NCBI GenBank assembly: GCA_025059205.1
Contig: JANXDS010000003.1
Span: forward strand, 1 to 64,000
Length of the DNA stretch: 64,000 bases
Reading direction: 5' to 3'
Origin: Aigarchaeota archaeon
GTDB taxonomy: Archaea > Thermoproteota > Nitrososphaeria_A > Caldarchaeales > Wolframiiraptoraceae
How positions within the stretch are numbered: the stretch's first letter is position 1; each line of letters starts with the position of its first letter. The notes under the pieces were generated by a model, which saw nothing but the letters and a program-made list of their open reading frames with translations, did not search any database and had not been told where the DNA came from. The position numbers and the translations under genes are program-made. Below, in pieces: positions 45,934-52,545 of the stretch.

Positions 45934-46230
45934 TCAGAAGATGCTTGGGTTACCTCCGCCTATCGCTGGAAGTATCAACACTTCGTCACCGTCTTCAAGT
46001 TTTGTATCGACGCCTTCTGTGAATTCTATGTTCTTTCCGTTGATGTAGAGGACGACGAAGCTTTTCAGGTTACCTTTGTCATCCAAAACCCTTTGTCTGA
46101 ATGCATCGCCGAACCTTTCAGAGAGTTTTTGTAGTAAATCCCGTACGTTTGTTGCCTCTAACTGTAGCTCGCGCTCGCTGTTTAGGTACATCGCCAACGT
46201 GCTTGTCATGACGAGCTTGACCTTTGCCAT
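45934..46230 (-). CDS. MoaD/ThiS-family ubiquitin-like sulfur carrier with C-terminal extension
   Basis: 98 aa beta-grasp protein. VRDLLQKLSERFGDAF, VLYINGKNIEFTEG and LEDGDEVLILPAIGGG are MoaD blocks. MoaD and sulfur carriers normally end with GG, but here five more residues, NPSIF, follow the GGG. The normal activation (C-terminal adenylation and thiocarboxylate) therefore needs prior removal of NPSIF, as JAMM-type proteases do for some carriers. It starts at ATG 46230, 6 bases after the threonine-synthase-like gene. It could be MoaD for MoaE at 13 kb, or a carrier for its neighbour enzyme, or a protein modifier. Confidence 0.85.
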   Translation of the reverse strand: MAKVKLVMTSTLAMYLNSERELQLEATNVRDLLQKLSERFGDAFRQRVLDDKGNLKSFVVLYINGKNIEFTEGVDTKLEDGDEVLILPAIGGGNPSIF

Positions 46231-46236
46231 GTACTC

Positions 46237-47448
46237 TCACCGAGTAAACACCGTACTGAGCATTTCAATCTTGGGCAATATTAACTTTGTCTTAACGTCC
46301 TGTTGGGGGATTATCTCGAGCGTCTTAAAGCCTGCACCCGTAACGCAGCATACAACCTCTTCCGACTTGTCAATCTTACCCTGCTCCAGCAGCTTCTTCA
46401 AGACCGCCACGCTTATAGCTCCGCCAGGCTCCGCGAAAATGCCTTCTGTCTTAGCCAAAAGTTTAACGGAATGTAACACCTCCTCGTCGGATACGGACTC
46501 GCACACACCGTGGCTCTGCCTGACAGTCTTGAGGGCAAAGGCACCATCACCAGGCATGCCTATCGCAAGGCTCTTGACGAGCGTCATAGGCTTCTCGACG
46601 GGTAAAACATAATCCAAACATTTCTTGAATGCATTAACTATCGGTGAGCAACCTTCCGGTTGGGCACCATGCATTCTGGTAGAACCCTTCACGATGCCGA
46701 GCTCTTCAAGCTCCATCAAACCTTTGTATAAGGCACAAAGGAGCGCACCGCTCGCCATAGGAACTATGACGTTTTCTGGAACTCTCCAACCTAGCTGCTC
46801 GACTATTTCGAACATCATTGTCTTCGACCCCTCGACATAGTAAGGCCTTAGGTTCACGTTGACTATACCTACGTTGTATAGGTCGCAGGATATGTGCGCA
46901 AGCCTGTTAACGTCATCGTAAGTACCGTTCACGAGCACCACATCCGCACCATACTGGGTTGCCTGGAGTATCTTGTTCCGTTCGACGTCATACGGCATGA
47001 AGACATAGCAAGGAAGCCCTGCTTTACTTGCATGCGCAGCCGTTGCCGATGCGAGGTTTCCGGTCGAGGCACAACCTACCGCGCTCAACTTGAACTCCTT
47101 AGCCTTGGACACTGCCACGGATGCCGGCCTGTCCTTAAAGGAGAAAGTCGGGTTTAGCGTGTCGTTCTTTATGTAGAGCTTTTTTATCCCAAGCTCTTCG
47201 CCGAGTCTATCCGCCCTTACTAAGGGCGTGTTGCCTGAGCCTATGTTGACGATGTTGTTCGGGTCTTCTATGGGCAGCAGTTCGAAGTACCTCCAGATAG
47301 ACCTCTCCCTCGACTCAAAATTATACCTCGAAACGTCAGACAAATCATACTTTACTTCGAGAGCACCTAGACACTTCGGACACATGTAGAGGAGGCGGGA
47401 CTCGTACTCTTCGGAGCAATTCCTACATACCAGCTTTATCTTCCTGAC
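46237..47448 (-). CDS. thrC: Threonine-synthase-fold PLP enzyme with N-terminal zinc ribbon
   Basis: About 403 aa. Zinc ribbon LVCRNC...YMCPKC (two CxxC), then fold-type II PLP enzyme: PTFSFKDRPAS has the Schiff-base lysine (about 111), ASTGNLASATAAHASKAGLPCYVF binds substrate phosphate, SGALLCALYKG the PLP phosphate. Annotated threonine synthase acts on O-phosphohomoserine; some archaeal relatives act as cysteate or cysteine synthases. The first ATG (47385) falls inside the ribbon. Upstream the frame has no ATG/GTG/TTG: AAGGTGGT (47464-47457) is 8 bases ahead of GTC 47448, with a TATA box at about 47493-47484. ATA 47439 or CTG 47433 are alternatives. Confidence 0.85.
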   Translation of the reverse strand, partial: VRKIKLVCRNCSEEYESRLLYMCPKCLGALEVKYDLSDVSRYNFESRERSIWRYFELLPIEDPNNIVNIGSGNTPLVRADRLGEELGIKKLYIKNDTLNPTFSFKDRPASVAVSKAKEFKLSAVGCASTGNLASATAAHASKAGLPCYVFMPYDVERNKILQATQYGADVVLVNGTYDDVNRLAHISCDLYNVGIVNVNLRPYYVEGSKTMMFEIVEQLGWRVPENVIVPMASGALLCALYKGLMELEELGIVKGSTRMHGAQPEGCSPIVNAFKKCLDYVLPVEKPMTLVKSLAIGMPGDGAFALKTVRQSHGVCESVSDEEVLHSVKLLAKTEGIFAEPGGAISVAVLKKLLEQGKIDKSEEVVCCVTGAGFKTLEIIPQQDVKTKLILPKIEMLSTVFTR

Positions 47449-47571: not shown

Positions 47572-48918
47572 ATGTTCAAATATGCATTAGACATGAATAG
47601 AGCGAAAAGCACCTTGAACGATAGAAAGATATCCAGAAGGGACTTTCTTGGCATCACGAAGGTTGCAGCAATTGGCGGCATAGTCGCCGCAGGTGTTGCG
47701 GGCGGTGTAGCAGGTTACCTTGCCAGGACGCCAGAGGTCAGGGAAGTCACAAAAACCGTCACATATACACCGCCAGTAACGGAGCTAAAACCGATTAAGG
47801 TGGGTTACGTGTACGTCGGGCCGGTCGGCGATTACGGTTGGAGTTACGGACATGACAGAGGTAGGAAATGGGCCGATGCAAGATTCAAGAACGCCGAGAG
47901 CTTCTACATAGAAAGCGTTCCAGAGGCTGAGGTTATTCCGGCAATCGAAAACTTGCTCGCGAAGGGCTGTGAGCTGATAATAACGACTAGCTTTGGCTTC
48001 ATGGACGGAACGGCTGAAGTTGCCGAGAAGAATCCTGACAAATACTTCGTTCATATATCGGGCTACAGAAGCGGTGCTGCTGGGAACGCACCGCAGAACA
48101 TGAGCTCGGCGTTCGCGGAATTCTATCAACTATACTATCTCTGCGGTCTCGCCGCAGGTGCTGTAACACAAACCGGTGTCGTAGGATACGTTGGAGCATA
48201 CCCGATACCGGAGGTCGTTAGACACATAAACGCCTACGTACTCGGTGCTCAGTATGCATACAAAAAGAGAACCGGGAAGGACATTAAGGCACATGTAACA
48301 TGGCTCTTTGGGTGGGTTGCACCGGAGCAGGCAAGACTCGCAGCCTCTGCCCTAATCGATGATAAGAACTGCGATGTACTCAACTATACTGAGGACACTC
48401 CAGCAGTGTTAATGGTTGCAGAAGAGTATCAGAAGAAAGGTAAGAAGGTATGGAGCTTCAGTCACTACAGTGACATGAGAGAGTATGGACCTACGGCTCA
48501 CTTGACGGGGCCAGTAGCCAACTGGGGACCTATATACTTGGACTTTTATAAAATGGTCGCGACCAAAACATGGTATAGCGTTGACATCTGGTCGAGGGTT
48601 GGCGACTACATGCCATGGAGATGGAGGCAGACTATCGAGAAGAGCACAGCAGGAAGAGAAGAAGGGACGGTTTACTTAGCGCCTATAAGTCCAGTCATAC
48701 CAAGCGAATATGTCAACCTGATTAAGCAAAGGTACGAAGAGATGAAGGAACTCCTCTTCGAACCATTTAGCGTTGAAGGGCACGACCCTGAGGGGAAGAG
48801 ACCGATTAGGGACCAGAACGGAAATATCAGAATAAGGCCTGGTGAGAGGGCCGACCGCGATGCTTTATGGTCTATGGACTGGTTGGTAGAGTATGTAGAG
48901 GAACCGCTGCCCAAGTGA
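47572..48918 (+). CDS. BMP-family ABC transporter substrate-binding protein, Tat signal
   Basis: 448 aa. N-terminal KISRRDFLGITKVAAI is a twin-arginine signal followed by a hydrophobic segment (about 28-50), so it is exported folded and stays anchored. Then the BMP/PnrA domain: VGYVYVGPVGDYGWSYGHDRGRK, TTSFGFMDGTAEVAEKNPD, FAEFYQLYYLCGLAAGAVTQTG. Family members bind purine nucleosides or related ligands. ATG 47572 gives 21 extra residues before a second in-frame ATG at 47593, and either may be used. Opens the importer operon. Confidence 0.92.
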   Translation: MFKYALDMNRAKSTLNDRKISRRDFLGITKVAAIGGIVAAGVAGGVAGYLARTPEVREVTKTVTYTPPVTELKPIKVGYVYVGPVGDYGWSYGHDRGRKWADARFKNAESFYIESVPEAEVIPAIENLLAKGCELIITTSFGFMDGTAEVAEKNPDKYFVHISGYRSGAAGNAPQNMSSAFAEFYQLYYLCGLAAGAVTQTGVVGYVGAYPIPEVVRHINAYVLGAQYAYKKRTGKDIKAHVTWLFGWVAPEQARLAASALIDDKNCDVLNYTEDTPAVLMVAEEYQKKGKKVWSFSHYSDMREYGPTAHLTGPVANWGPIYLDFYKMVATKTWYSVDIWSRVGDYMPWRWRQTIEKSTAGREEGTVYLAPISPVIPSEYVNLIKQRYEEMKELLFEPFSVEGHDPEGKRPIRDQNGNIRIRPGERADRDALWSMDWLVEYVEEPLPK

Positions 48919-48961
48919 CTGCCGCAAACCTTCCCTTATTTTTTAGTCGGAGGTTCATAAG

Positions 48962-50491
48962 ATGTCTGTTACGCCTTTAGTCGAGTTAAAGGGCATAGTG
49001 AAGAAATTCCATAACGTGTTAGCTAACGATCATGTAGACTTTTCGCTCATGCCTGGTGAAGTACACGCACTGCTGGGTGAGAACGCTGCTGGAAAAACAA
49101 CGTTGATGAACATACTATACGGACTTTACAGTCCTGACGATGGAGAAATATACGTAAAAGGAAAGAAGGTGAGAACCAAGTCACCGGCGGATTCTATAAA
49201 ATTAGGAATAGGCATGGTCCATCAGAACTTTAAGCTAATACCAGTCCACACGGTTTGGGAGAATGTCGTGCTTGGTCTCAAGGAGGCTGGTTTCATTTTG
49301 AATAAAAGAAAGCTTGCAGAAACTGTGAGGAAGGTTTGTGAGGAGTATGGCTGGAATATCAACCCAAATGCAAAGGTCTGGCAACTCTCAGTAAGCGAAA
49401 AGCAACAAGTTGAACTCTTGAAGCTCTTGATAAGAAACGCTGAAGTTCTAATTCTGGACGAGCCCACTTCTGTCCTTACGCCTCAAGAGACCAAGAACCT
49501 CTTCAAAGCCCTTAGGATTATGGCGAAAAAGGGCAAGGGTATAATCTTCATCACGCACAAACTCGAGGAGGTCTTCGGGGTAAGCGATAGGGTCACAGTT
49601 ATGAGGAAAGGGAAGGTTATAGCAACAAAACCTACGAGTGGAGTAACTGCTGAAGAGCTTGCAAACTTGATGATAGGCAGACCAGTGTTATTCAGATTTA
49701 AGAAGTCTGATGTAAAAAAAGGAAATATCGTATTGGAAACGAGAGATCTCAAGGCCATGGGCGACAGGGGCGTTCTAGCTTTAGATGGCATTAACCTTCG
49801 TGTTCATTCCGGCGAGATCCTCGGTATTGCAGGAATTGCCGGAAACGGCCAGGAGGAATTGATGGAAGTTCTTGCCGGTCTACGAAGAGCTAGTAGTGGT
49901 AAGGTGTTTGTAGACGGTGAGGATGTGACAAACAAGGGTGTGAGTTACTTGAGAGAAAAAGGTGTTGTGTACATACCGCCCGAGAGCACCAGATGGGCTA
50001 TCATCCGTGATATGAATCTCATGGAAAACATAGCGCTGAAGCTATACAGGAGTAGGAATTTTTCAGGCATGTTCACGATCGATTGGAGCAAGCTCTATGA
50101 ATTTTCAAAGAAGCTCATAGAAGATTACGAGATAGCGGCACATAGCCCGTTAACGTTGGCCGGCACACTTTCTGGTGGAAATTTGCAGAAAGTTGTCCTA
50201 GCCAGAGAGCTATCAGCGACGCAGGACGGTAGTGTGCCTAAGCTTATACTTGCAGCTTATCCAACTAAAGGCCTCGATGTTGCAGCAACAGAATTTGTCC
50301 AAGGCTTACTGTTAAATTATAGATCTATGGGTTCGGCCATAATCTTCCTATCCGAGGACCTAGAGGAGATAATGATGCTGAGTGACAGGGTGGTCGTTAT
50401 ATCTAAGGGAGGGGTAGTCAGTGAGTTCGCACCGACAGAAAAGACTATAGAAGAAGTTGGCATGATGATGGTAAAGGGTAACGCAGCTTAG
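48962..50491 (+). CDS. ABC transporter ATPase, two nucleotide-binding domains (BMP/nucleoside importer)
   Basis: 509 aa. Domain 1: Walker A GENAAGKTTLMN (about 39), Walker B LILDEPTSVLTP, H loop THK. Domain 2: degenerate Walker A GIAGNGQEEL (about 286), signature LSGGNLQKVVLAREL, Walker B LILAAYPTKGLDVAA. The degenerate second site is the rule in the RbsA/YufO branch. CGGAGGTTC is nine bases ahead of ATG 48962. Energises the two following permeases. Confidence 0.94.
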   Translation: MSVTPLVELKGIVKKFHNVLANDHVDFSLMPGEVHALLGENAAGKTTLMNILYGLYSPDDGEIYVKGKKVRTKSPADSIKLGIGMVHQNFKLIPVHTVWENVVLGLKEAGFILNKRKLAETVRKVCEEYGWNINPNAKVWQLSVSEKQQVELLKLLIRNAEVLILDEPTSVLTPQETKNLFKALRIMAKKGKGIIFITHKLEEVFGVSDRVTVMRKGKVIATKPTSGVTAEELANLMIGRPVLFRFKKSDVKKGNIVLETRDLKAMGDRGVLALDGINLRVHSGEILGIAGIAGNGQEELMEVLAGLRRASSGKVFVDGEDVTNKGVSYLREKGVVYIPPESTRWAIIRDMNLMENIALKLYRSRNFSGMFTIDWSKLYEFSKKLIEDYEIAAHSPLTLAGTLSGGNLQKVVLARELSATQDGSVPKLILAAYPTKGLDVAATEFVQGLLLNYRSMGSAIIFLSEDLEEIMMLSDRVVVISKGGVVSEFAPTEKTIEEVGMMMVKGNAA

Positions 50492-50504
50492 GTGGTATAA
50501 AGAT

Positions 50505-51560
50505 TTGTTTAAATTAGAGAGACGCGTATATGTGAGCCGGAAAACATCTGTTCTCGTCATCTTCTTATCACTCTTGCTTGCATTTTTCGTGACGGGTCTT
50601 ATATTCCACTTTTTGGGTGTGGATGTTGTCCAATTCTACTCGATTATATATAACGTCTTCATCACACCCGCTCTTCTTATTCAAGCTGTTTTCAGAAGCA
50701 TACCGATAATCTTAGCATCTTTAGGTCTAGTCATTGCTTTTAGGATGGGTTTTTGGAACATAGGTGCCGAGGGGCAGATATATCTAGGAATGGTGGCCGC
50801 GACTGGTATAGTCATATTACACGTTTCCTACGGTACTATTCCTGAGCCTTTAATGCTCATAACGATGGGTACTGCCTCGTTCCTGGCCGGTGGGGTATGG
50901 TGCCTCATACCAGCATCCTTAAAGGTAAGATTAGGTGTTAATGAGGTTCTAACAACCTTGATGCTAAACTACATAGCCATGTTGTTTGTGGATTACTTGG
51001 TATATGGTCCATGGAGAGATCCGGAAGGTTGGGGCTTTGCACTTTCCATACCGTTCCCTGATTATGCAACGCTTACGTTCAGCGGGCATCCTTCTATTGC
51101 TGGTATTGTGATATCTGTCGCGATTGCGACACTAGTGTACATATTGTTCAAGTACACGAAGCTGGGTTTCGTACTCAGTGTTCTTGGAAAGAGTAGCGAG
51201 GTTGCCAAGTATGCAGGTATGCCGGTCGGACGCGCCACGTTGCTAGGCTCTCTAATTAGCGGCGGCATAGCTGGCTTGGGAGGTTTTTATGTAGTGTCTG
51301 GGATGATAGGAAGGCTAAGGCCCAGAGCATCGCCAGGTTATGGTTATGCTGCCATAATAGTGGCTATGCTTGCTCAGCTCAACCCTTGGCTCATACTGCC
51401 TGCCGGCATATTCTTCGGAGGTCTACTAACAGCTGGTGACGCACTCCAATCATTACTAAGGCTACCATATTCGGCCATCACAGTCTTTCAGTCCGTGATC
51501 TTTCTCTGTATAGTGTTGGCTGAGTTCTTCATAAAGTATAGGGTTGTTTTAAAGAGGTGA
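50505..51560 (+). CDS. ABC transporter permease 1 (BMP/nucleoside importer)
   Basis: 351 aa, about eight membrane segments. FRMGFWNIGAEGQIYLGM, LGVNEVLTTLMLNYIA and YAGMPVGRATLLGSLISGGIAGLGG are the family loops of the YufP/BPD-type permease. TTG 50505; GGTGGT just ahead. Forms the membrane pore with the next permease. Confidence 0.92.
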   Translation: MFKLERRVYVSRKTSVLVIFLSLLLAFFVTGLIFHFLGVDVVQFYSIIYNVFITPALLIQAVFRSIPIILASLGLVIAFRMGFWNIGAEGQIYLGMVAATGIVILHVSYGTIPEPLMLITMGTASFLAGGVWCLIPASLKVRLGVNEVLTTLMLNYIAMLFVDYLVYGPWRDPEGWGFALSIPFPDYATLTFSGHPSIAGIVISVAIATLVYILFKYTKLGFVLSVLGKSSEVAKYAGMPVGRATLLGSLISGGIAGLGGFYVVSGMIGRLRPRASPGYGYAAIIVAMLAQLNPWLILPAGIFFGGLLTAGDALQSLLRLPYSAITVFQSVIFLCIVLAEFFIKYRVVLKR

Positions 51561-51564
51561 GAGC

Positions 51565-52545
51565 ATGAGTATCGAATGGATCGAGCCTGTGCTTGCAAGC
51601 ACAACAAGCATCAGCGCCATCTATCTGCTCGGCTCGCTAGGTGAAATCTACGCAGAAAGGTCTGGAATACTCAACTTAGGCCTGGAGGGGATCATGGCGA
51701 TGGGTGCTGCTGTTTCTTTCATAATTACAATAGCATGGGGACATGTGCCCGCCTTCCTGATTTCATGCGTTTTTGGCATACTGATGGGGTTACTGCTCGC
51801 CCTCTTTACGGTGTCTCTTAGGCTGAACCAGATAGCGGTAGGCTTAGCAATAACTATGCTGGGCATAGGTCTTAGCGGCTTCATAGCGTTTCCGACTACT
51901 AGGAAGGCGATACTCCAAGCCCTGAATCCACAGCTTCCGAGCATAGCTCTTGAAATCCAGAGCGCTCCTATGTTGCCGTCCGTTCCTTTACCGTTCCTTA
52001 AGGACATACCGATAATTGGTCCGATGTTCTTTAACCACAACGTCGTCGTCTACATAGCGCTCATACTGGCGCCGTTGATGTGGTTTCTGCTGTTTAGGAC
52101 GAGCATAGGTTTGAAAATTAGGAGCGTCGGCGAGAATCCAGGAATGGCGGACGCCCTCGGAATAAACGTTTTCAGGATAAGGTATCTTACATGCATGCTA
52201 TCGGGCGTGTTCTCAGCTCTAGCCGGTGCATATCTCATACTTGGATTTCAACCGTTCTGGATAGAAGGCATTACCGGTGGCAGGGGCTTCATAACTTTGT
52301 CCTTAATCATATTGTCTACTTGGAGTCCGTTGAGGGCGATATTCGGCTCTTTACTCTTTGGGGGTATAGAGGTGCTACAGTATAGGCTACAGCTCTTTGG
52401 ATTAGGTGCAACAGCTCCCCAATTCGTCTTGATGCTTCCATACGCAATAGCCGTGATTACCTTAACCTTGCTATCCCTCGAGAGCTTCAGGAAAAGGATA
52501 AGCGCTCCGGCTGCGCTGGCAAAACCCTACTGTAGAGAGGAGTGA
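51565..52545 (+). CDS. ABC transporter permease 2 (BMP/nucleoside importer)
   Basis: 326 aa, eight or nine membrane segments. LGSLGEIYAERSGILNLGLEGIMAMGA and RSVGENPGMADALGINVFRIRYLTCMLSG are the YufQ-type blocks. Four bases after permease 1 with GAGGTGAGAGC ahead of ATG 51565. Last gene of the importer operon. Confidence 0.93.
   Translation: MSIEWIEPVLASTTSISAIYLLGSLGEIYAERSGILNLGLEGIMAMGAAVSFIITIAWGHVPAFLISCVFGILMGLLLALFTVSLRLNQIAVGLAITMLGIGLSGFIAFPTTRKAILQALNPQLPSIALEIQSAPMLPSVPLPFLKDIPIIGPMFFNHNVVVYIALILAPLMWFLLFRTSIGLKIRSVGENPGMADALGINVFRIRYLTCMLSGVFSALAGAYLILGFQPFWIEGITGGRGFITLSLIILSTWSPLRAIFGSLLFGGIEVLQYRLQLFGLGATAPQFVLMLPYAIAVITLTLLSLESFRKRISAPAALAKPYCREE

Follow-up and report, generated by a model that had tools for sequence, protein, structure and literature searches.

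In Wolinella, the HcyS-HcyD-HcyF system makes homocysteine through a carrier thiocarboxylate; the residues of HcyS beyond its Gly-Gly are removed by a JAMM protease, and the system uses a MetY-type enzyme of PF01053 (the family of cystathionine synthases/lyases and O-acylhomoserine sulfhydrylases). In the CysM-CysO-Mec system of Mycobacterium tuberculosis, a PLP fold-II enzyme is fed by a ubiquitin-like carrier, with release by a JAMM protein. In Streptomyces, MetM is reported to form homocysteine from O-phosphohomoserine (Hasebe et al. 2024, doi 10.1128/aem.01247-24, via PMC12172450). PMC12172450 mentions metO alongside it, together with a Microcystis relative that bears a sulfur-carrier annotation and adjoins the Microcystis ThrC gene. 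In vitro, the Microcystis homologue encoded beside this MetO-like gene acted as a threonine synthase and as a deaminase, and in cells it gave no increase in methionine (PMC12172450). Finally, Gly-Gly lies inside a longer chain in MoaX of M. tuberculosis and in the MoaD-MoeB fusions of Thaumarchaeota, which have been listed before; both were assigned to molybdenum cofactor synthesis.

Here, we describe a related gene couplet in a window that spans positions 1-64000 of contig 3 in the genome of a hot-spring archaeon (1.19 Mb, 97% complete). The first-pass annotation had reported a MoaD-like protein ending GGG-NPSIF, whose gene follows that of a PLP enzyme by 6 bases, and we verified both open reading frames and their domain matches (Table 1). 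We refer to the two proteins as ThrC' and MoaD'. The MoaD' frame ends in ...LPAIGGGNPSIF, with glycines and tail reading GGGNPSIF. It matches PF02597 (ThiS) at 7.8e-14, and its score exceeds the cut-off of TIGR01687 (moaD_arch); against the curated SAMP1 model it reaches 53.3 bits, below the cut-off of 60. ThrC' matches PF00291 at 4.1e-73 and carries an N-terminal zinc-ribbon-like segment (CxxC...CxxC). Divergent from the couplet, genes for a BMP-type lipoprotein and an ABC transporter occupy window positions 47572-52545.

Table 1. Features of the couplet and of candidate partner genes elsewhere in the genome. Positions without a prefix are those of the window.
Feature	Position	Strand	Basis or remark
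MoaD', 98-aa sulfur carrier with ubiquitin fold, MetO/CysO type	45934..46230	-	PF02597, TIGR01687, tree clade
GGG codons (residues 91-93), predicted E1 adenylation site	45952..45960	-	sequence; GG conserved in MoaDs examined
Tail NPSIF past the glycines (residues 94-98)	45937..45951	-	sequence
Gap between ThrC' and MoaD', 6 bases	46231..46236	-	consistent with a single transcript
ThrC', threonine-synthase-fold PLP enzyme, putative homocysteine synthase (MetM type), 403 aa (exact start codon uncertain)	46237..47448	-	
Lys105 in the SFKDR motif, predicted to bind PLP	47134..47136	-	alignment to solved threonine synthases
MoeB-like E1	C1:172185-173264		36-43% identity, nearly full length, to E1s after ThrC'-MoaD in sister taxa
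CysM-like enzyme	C2:279603-280622		JAMM gene directly follows
Mec-like JAMM, intact HxHx(10)D: HSHPNYPARPSAYD	C2:279162-279503		unlinked to the couplet

Judged from sequence, the couplet is most aptly classed as an archaeal form of the MetM-MetO system, given the MetM precedent and a locus in the actinobacterium Nonomuraea, where a ThrC'-type protein (46% identity) with the archaeal signature motifs is followed by a MoaD ending AGG. The MetM-MetO locus of Streptomyces albulus likewise has a ThrC-like enzyme adjoining a sulfur-carrier gene; the present system, in contrast, is archaeal, has a carrier that is tailed or fused to an E1 or a cysteine synthase, and comes with separate JAMM genes and with linkage to homoserine dehydrogenase and sulfur-relay genes. 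CysO (3dwg_C) is among the solved carriers nearest to MoaD', whereas ThrC' belongs to the ThrC family rather than the cysteine synthase family, and the CysM/Mec-like pair of the genome lies elsewhere. MoaD' resembles Wolinella HcyS in having residues past the GG, and JAMM genes are present in the genome; in contrast to the Wolinella system, a profile search of this archaeal genome gave no strong PF01053 match. The threonine-synthase relative also sets the system apart from MoaX and the MoaD-MoeB fusions, since the portions of that literature available make no mention of such a protein.

We found that ThrC' differs consistently from canonical threonine synthases. Across 61 relatives, it stands out as a sharply delimited group, with 54-86% identity within and at most 43% to other ThrCs, and a separate clade in the tree (support 0.999). 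Its STGNL replaces the STGNT of solved threonine synthases and of the canonical ThrC in the same genome (C1:452327), and further exchanges are NVNxRPYYVEGSKT for NSxNPxRLEGQKT, PxxSGALL for PVGNAGNI, GAGxTPL (GSGNTPL in the window protein) for EGxTPL, and IGxPGDG for IGxPxxW. A search of ThrC' for the canonical STGNT, NSxNPxRLEGQKT and GNxGNI motifs found none of them. Many of the altered positions show no variation among 11 aligned ThrC' sequences, nor does Lys105, and these altered residues presumably contact the substrate. The fold itself is still that of threonine synthase, as threonine synthases are the nearest solved structures both by alignment and by Foldseek (AlphaFold2 model, pLDDT 89.7). 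Because a canonical ThrC is encoded elsewhere, the clade is separate and supported, and the active-site motifs are altered, we conclude that ThrC' is distinct from the housekeeping threonine synthase. A second, canonical-looking ThrC is present in ammonia oxidisers too, and we rejected ThrC' as their threonine synthase on this ground. The genome encodes six PLP fold-II enzymes in all, namely ThrC', the canonical ThrC, two TrpB-like proteins, the CysM-like enzyme and a threonine-synthase-like enzyme with a C-terminal PadR-like winged-helix domain (C2:269950-271074, in a frame of 521 aa); in the alignment the last reads SFLDR, without the lysine of SFKDR.

To place the couplet among its relatives, we scanned species genomes with the ThrC' alignment, which yielded 342 relatives, and read the loci of the best 80. 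These are all archaeal save one record titled Nitrosomonas, apparently a mis-binned ammonia-oxidising archaeon, and the closest named genomes among them are those of Ca. Terraquivivens, an aigarchaeote of the order Caldarchaeales; the present genome is assigned to this genus. A MoaD gene directly follows ThrC' in 77 of these 80 loci (some loci end close by), a frequency by which we rejected chance adjacency. The MoaD is fused to an E1 in 45 loci, with GG at the junction (e.g., AGG-SELSSKELERYSRQ), is followed by a separate E1 in 15, and stands alone after ThrC' in 17. The MoaDs examined retain Gly-Gly, either C-terminally or, in fusions, at the junction. Within the same best 80 of 342, one ThrC'-MoaD locus continues into homoserine dehydrogenase, and two bathyarchaeal loci encode a carrier-cysteine synthase fusion. 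One of these two has a serine-kinase-like middle domain, a label taken solely from a match to the genome's own SerK-like frame, as a PDB search with the domain gave no match. This three-part fusion (L286:1991-3607), whose cysteine synthase is divergent, lies between ThrC' and an E1, followed by SufS. In two sister genomes of family f1, genes for sulfite reductase, TusA and cysteine desulfurase surround the ThrC' cluster.

The first-pass annotation had asked whether the gene pair is conserved; it is kept in the genus, at 75-86% identity. Outside the genus, Caldarchaeum-type genomes have ThrC' without an adjacent MoaD. In the f2 genomes G028 and G040, the MoaD beside ThrC' is a different one according to the tree, and the true MoaD' is found elsewhere; adjacency is therefore not strict orthology everywhere.

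We next consider how ThrC' is distributed relative to the known homocysteine enzymes. Among 397 Thermoproteota genomes, ThrC' occurs in 116 and a strong PF01053 match in 174, and only 7 genomes have both, against about 51 expected (Fisher 1e-25). Counted per genus, 7 have both, 38 and 69 have one exclusively and 56 have neither (p 3e-6). In both counts, genomes that share a clade are not independent data points, and a few large clades account for most of the near-exclusion. The contrast is weak when family f1 is taken alone (3 with both, 7 and 7 exclusive, 3 neither). In the genus itself, four genomes have ThrC' only and two, G002 and G005, have PF01053 only; in G005, MoaD' survives at the syntenic place although ThrC' is gone, and the order of the lipoprotein and transporter genes is retained there, with ThrC' missing between them and MoaD'. 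The other known family, PF01837 (HcyBio), was found in 4 of 61 genomes and in none of the sampled genomes of the whole order. Counts compiled from the separate ThrC', PF01053 and PF01837 results place ThrC' in 28 of the 38 genomes that lack both families and in 5 of the 23 that have one (p 1.4e-4). Neither family was found in two ammonia-oxidising archaea checked for both, and none of the listed ThrC'-bearing genomes from ammonia-oxidiser families yielded PF01053. Together with the gene linkage and fusions, the near-exclusion with PF01053 indicates that ThrC' would make homocysteine from O-phosphohomoserine and a carrier thiocarboxylate.

The remaining components of such a pathway were sought in the genome, for which the first-pass annotation had suggested looking for a JAMM protease and a MoeB-like E1. 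Both are present: E1 genes of the ThiF type and JAMM genes number three each. The MoeB-like E1 of Table 1 lies head to head with genes for TusA, a NifS/IscS cysteine desulfurase and a NifU-like protein, and a split MetE is also encoded. The Mec-like JAMM type is lacking in G007 and G015, which have the fusion or the couplet. A motif search and the genome stretches read revealed no GHMP-type homoserine kinase motif, only a single GHMP protein, and no archaeal shikimate kinase of GHMP type was seen in those stretches; the source of O-phosphohomoserine is therefore assumed from the canonical ThrC. Separately, a JAMM of Rpn11 size lies close to a 395-aa E1 (C2:286000-300000), and this proximity suggests a Caldarchaeum-like ubiquitin system.

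The first-pass annotation had also asked whether the extension beyond the glycines is conserved. An extension is present in 5 of 5 genus members that have the gene; its sequence, however, is never the same (NPSIF, ILKSQ, TSKIALIIV, TILHTL and TANINTGLQAA). Outside the genus it amounts to 0-2 residues in most relatives, or is QSGNKKHY, or a whole E1. A tail that is found in every genus copy but is specific to the species is probably trimmed, and the simplest reading is that the cut falls after Gly-Gly, so that the sequence beyond would be unimportant. The carrier of ammonia oxidisers has an entire E1 behind its glycines, so that cleavage after GG is required if it works there. Mycobacterial MoaX is cleaved at Gly82|Ser83, and the literature on MoaD-MoeB fusions cites cleavage of a MoaD-MoaE fusion by a JAMM protease.

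Altogether, we consider it likely that the couplet corresponds in archaea to MetM-MetO, pairing a homocysteine synthase that depends on O-phosphohomoserine with a sulfur carrier dedicated to it. For ThrC' and MoaD', we infer the substrate, the chemical steps, the sulfur transfer from the carrier, the JAMM release, the tail removal and the choice of protease as follows. A JAMM protease would probably remove the NPSIF tail and so expose a C-terminal Gly-Gly, whose glycine the MoeB-like E1 would adenylate, with sulfur from the cysteine desulfurase and TusA then giving the thiocarboxylate. ThrC' would eliminate phosphate from O-phosphohomoserine on PLP, and the carrier sulfur would add at the gamma carbon. 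Homocysteine could be freed by hydrolysis, or by an S-to-N shift and JAMM cleavage, and the split MetE would methylate it to methionine. Against this MetM-type reading we count the seven genomes with both ThrC' and PF01053, the weight of a few large clades in the near-exclusion, the weak f1 contrast, the missing GHMP homoserine kinase motif, the Caldarchaeum-type ThrC' without an adjacent MoaD, and the Microcystis result (PMC12172450). Ammonia oxidisers are abundant and able to make many of their own amino acids, and the couplet provides a specific candidate for their homocysteine enzyme, which would explain their methionine synthesis. Many annotations as "threonine synthase" or "molybdopterin" would be corrected by it, and the processing of a ubiquitin-like precursor would be tied to a core metabolic pathway. 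As far as the literature searched shows, the archaeal distribution, the cysteine-synthase fusions, the tailed precursor form and the connection of the Thaumarchaeota MoaD-MoeB fusion to a putative homocysteine synthase are new.

Other readings of the enzyme have to be weighed against these data. That ThrC' is an ordinary threonine synthase in a functionally meaningless MoaD neighbourhood would agree with its scores above the cut-offs of TIGR00260 (thrC) and PRK08197 and with the threonine synthase activity of the Microcystis homologue; given the canonical enzymes that coexist in the same genomes, the loss of conserved active-site motifs, and the MoaD adjacency in 77 of the best 80 of 342 relatives with its fusions, we regard this as very improbable. 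The first-pass annotation had proposed a thiocarboxylate-dependent pathway to either cysteine or homocysteine. The homocysteine half gains from the E1 linkage and fusions, the near-exclusion with PF01053, the homoserine dehydrogenase linkage, the split MetE and the MetM/MetO precedent, while the cysteine half loses ground to the separate CysM-like/JAMM pair. ThrC' acting like CysM with CysO, on O-phosphoserine and a carrier thiocarboxylate, might be read from the two bathyarchaeal carrier-cysteine synthase fusions, one with its serine-kinase-like domain, and from the JAMM gene adjoining the CysM-like gene. However, the CysM-like enzyme and JAMM at C2:279-280 kb form the better pair for cysteine synthesis and are found in the genus whether or not ThrC' is there, ThrC' tracks the absence of homocysteine enzymes, and its fold is that of threonine synthase rather than cysteine synthase, so that we find a cysteine-making ThrC' unlikely.

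As for the carrier, MoaD' might be a subunit of molybdopterin synthase, or combine the roles of MoaD and protein modifier as the first-pass annotation had suggested; its MoaD-family score above the cut-off as well as the discussion of Thaumarchaeota MoaD-MoeB fusions as molybdenum cofactor proteins speak for this reading. The annotation's statement that there is no other MoaD holds within the window; the whole genome encodes three further ThiS-family proteins. Two of these, MoaD2 beside a MoeA gene and MoaD3 beside an aldehyde ferredoxin oxidoreductase (AOR) gene, have clean AGG ends, and therefore the molybdenum/tungsten pathway has its own carriers. We looked for linkage of MoaD' to Mo/W cofactor genes and for its placement in the MoaD group, and observed neither; instead, the ThrC'-linked MoaDs, including MoaD', form their own clade in the MoaD tree. 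Furthermore, molybdate uptake and molybdoenzyme synthesis genes are described as setting Nitrososphaerales apart from other ammonia oxidisers, yet Nitrosopumilus-type genomes have the fusion throughout. On the MoaD tree and this gene distribution we rejected a molybdenum cofactor role, and the dual function, which the plain-GG MoaDs and the separate clade do not support, has very little probability left. A further reading is that the tailed Terraquivivens carrier no longer carries sulfur, its tails being decay once a free glycine was unneeded, with ThrC' using free sulfide. The variation of the tails in sequence and length among all species of the genus, the unlinked E1 in this genus and the persistence of MoaD' without ThrC' in G005 would fit such decay. 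GGG is conserved in 5 of 5 copies, however, E1 and JAMM genes are retained, and the E1 after the glycines in ammonia oxidisers and the MoaX cut at Gly|Ser favour cleavage; decay therefore seems rather unlikely to us, and we retain the sulfur-carrying MetO-type reading.

Within that reading, the MoaD' carrier may be shared with the CysM-like cysteine pathway. More broadly, one might tentatively propose, with somewhat less than even confidence, that a single ubiquitin-like carrier serves both ThrC' (homocysteine) and CysM (cysteine), that it is made as a precursor with a short tail or as an E1 or cysteine-synthase fusion, and that the same JAMM matures the carrier and releases the amino acid. 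If true, ammonia-oxidising archaea would make homocysteine mainly in this way. Among relatives, the CysM-like gene in G001:C3 (L361:5977-6932) is interrupted, as is the gene upstream, reflecting pseudogenes or assembly errors. The f4 relatives have a CysM-JAMM-MoaD operon, in which the MoaD (L182:8446-8988, L358:4837-5376) is distinct and bears a 90-residue C-terminal extension; this extension weakly matches an MraZ-like domain.
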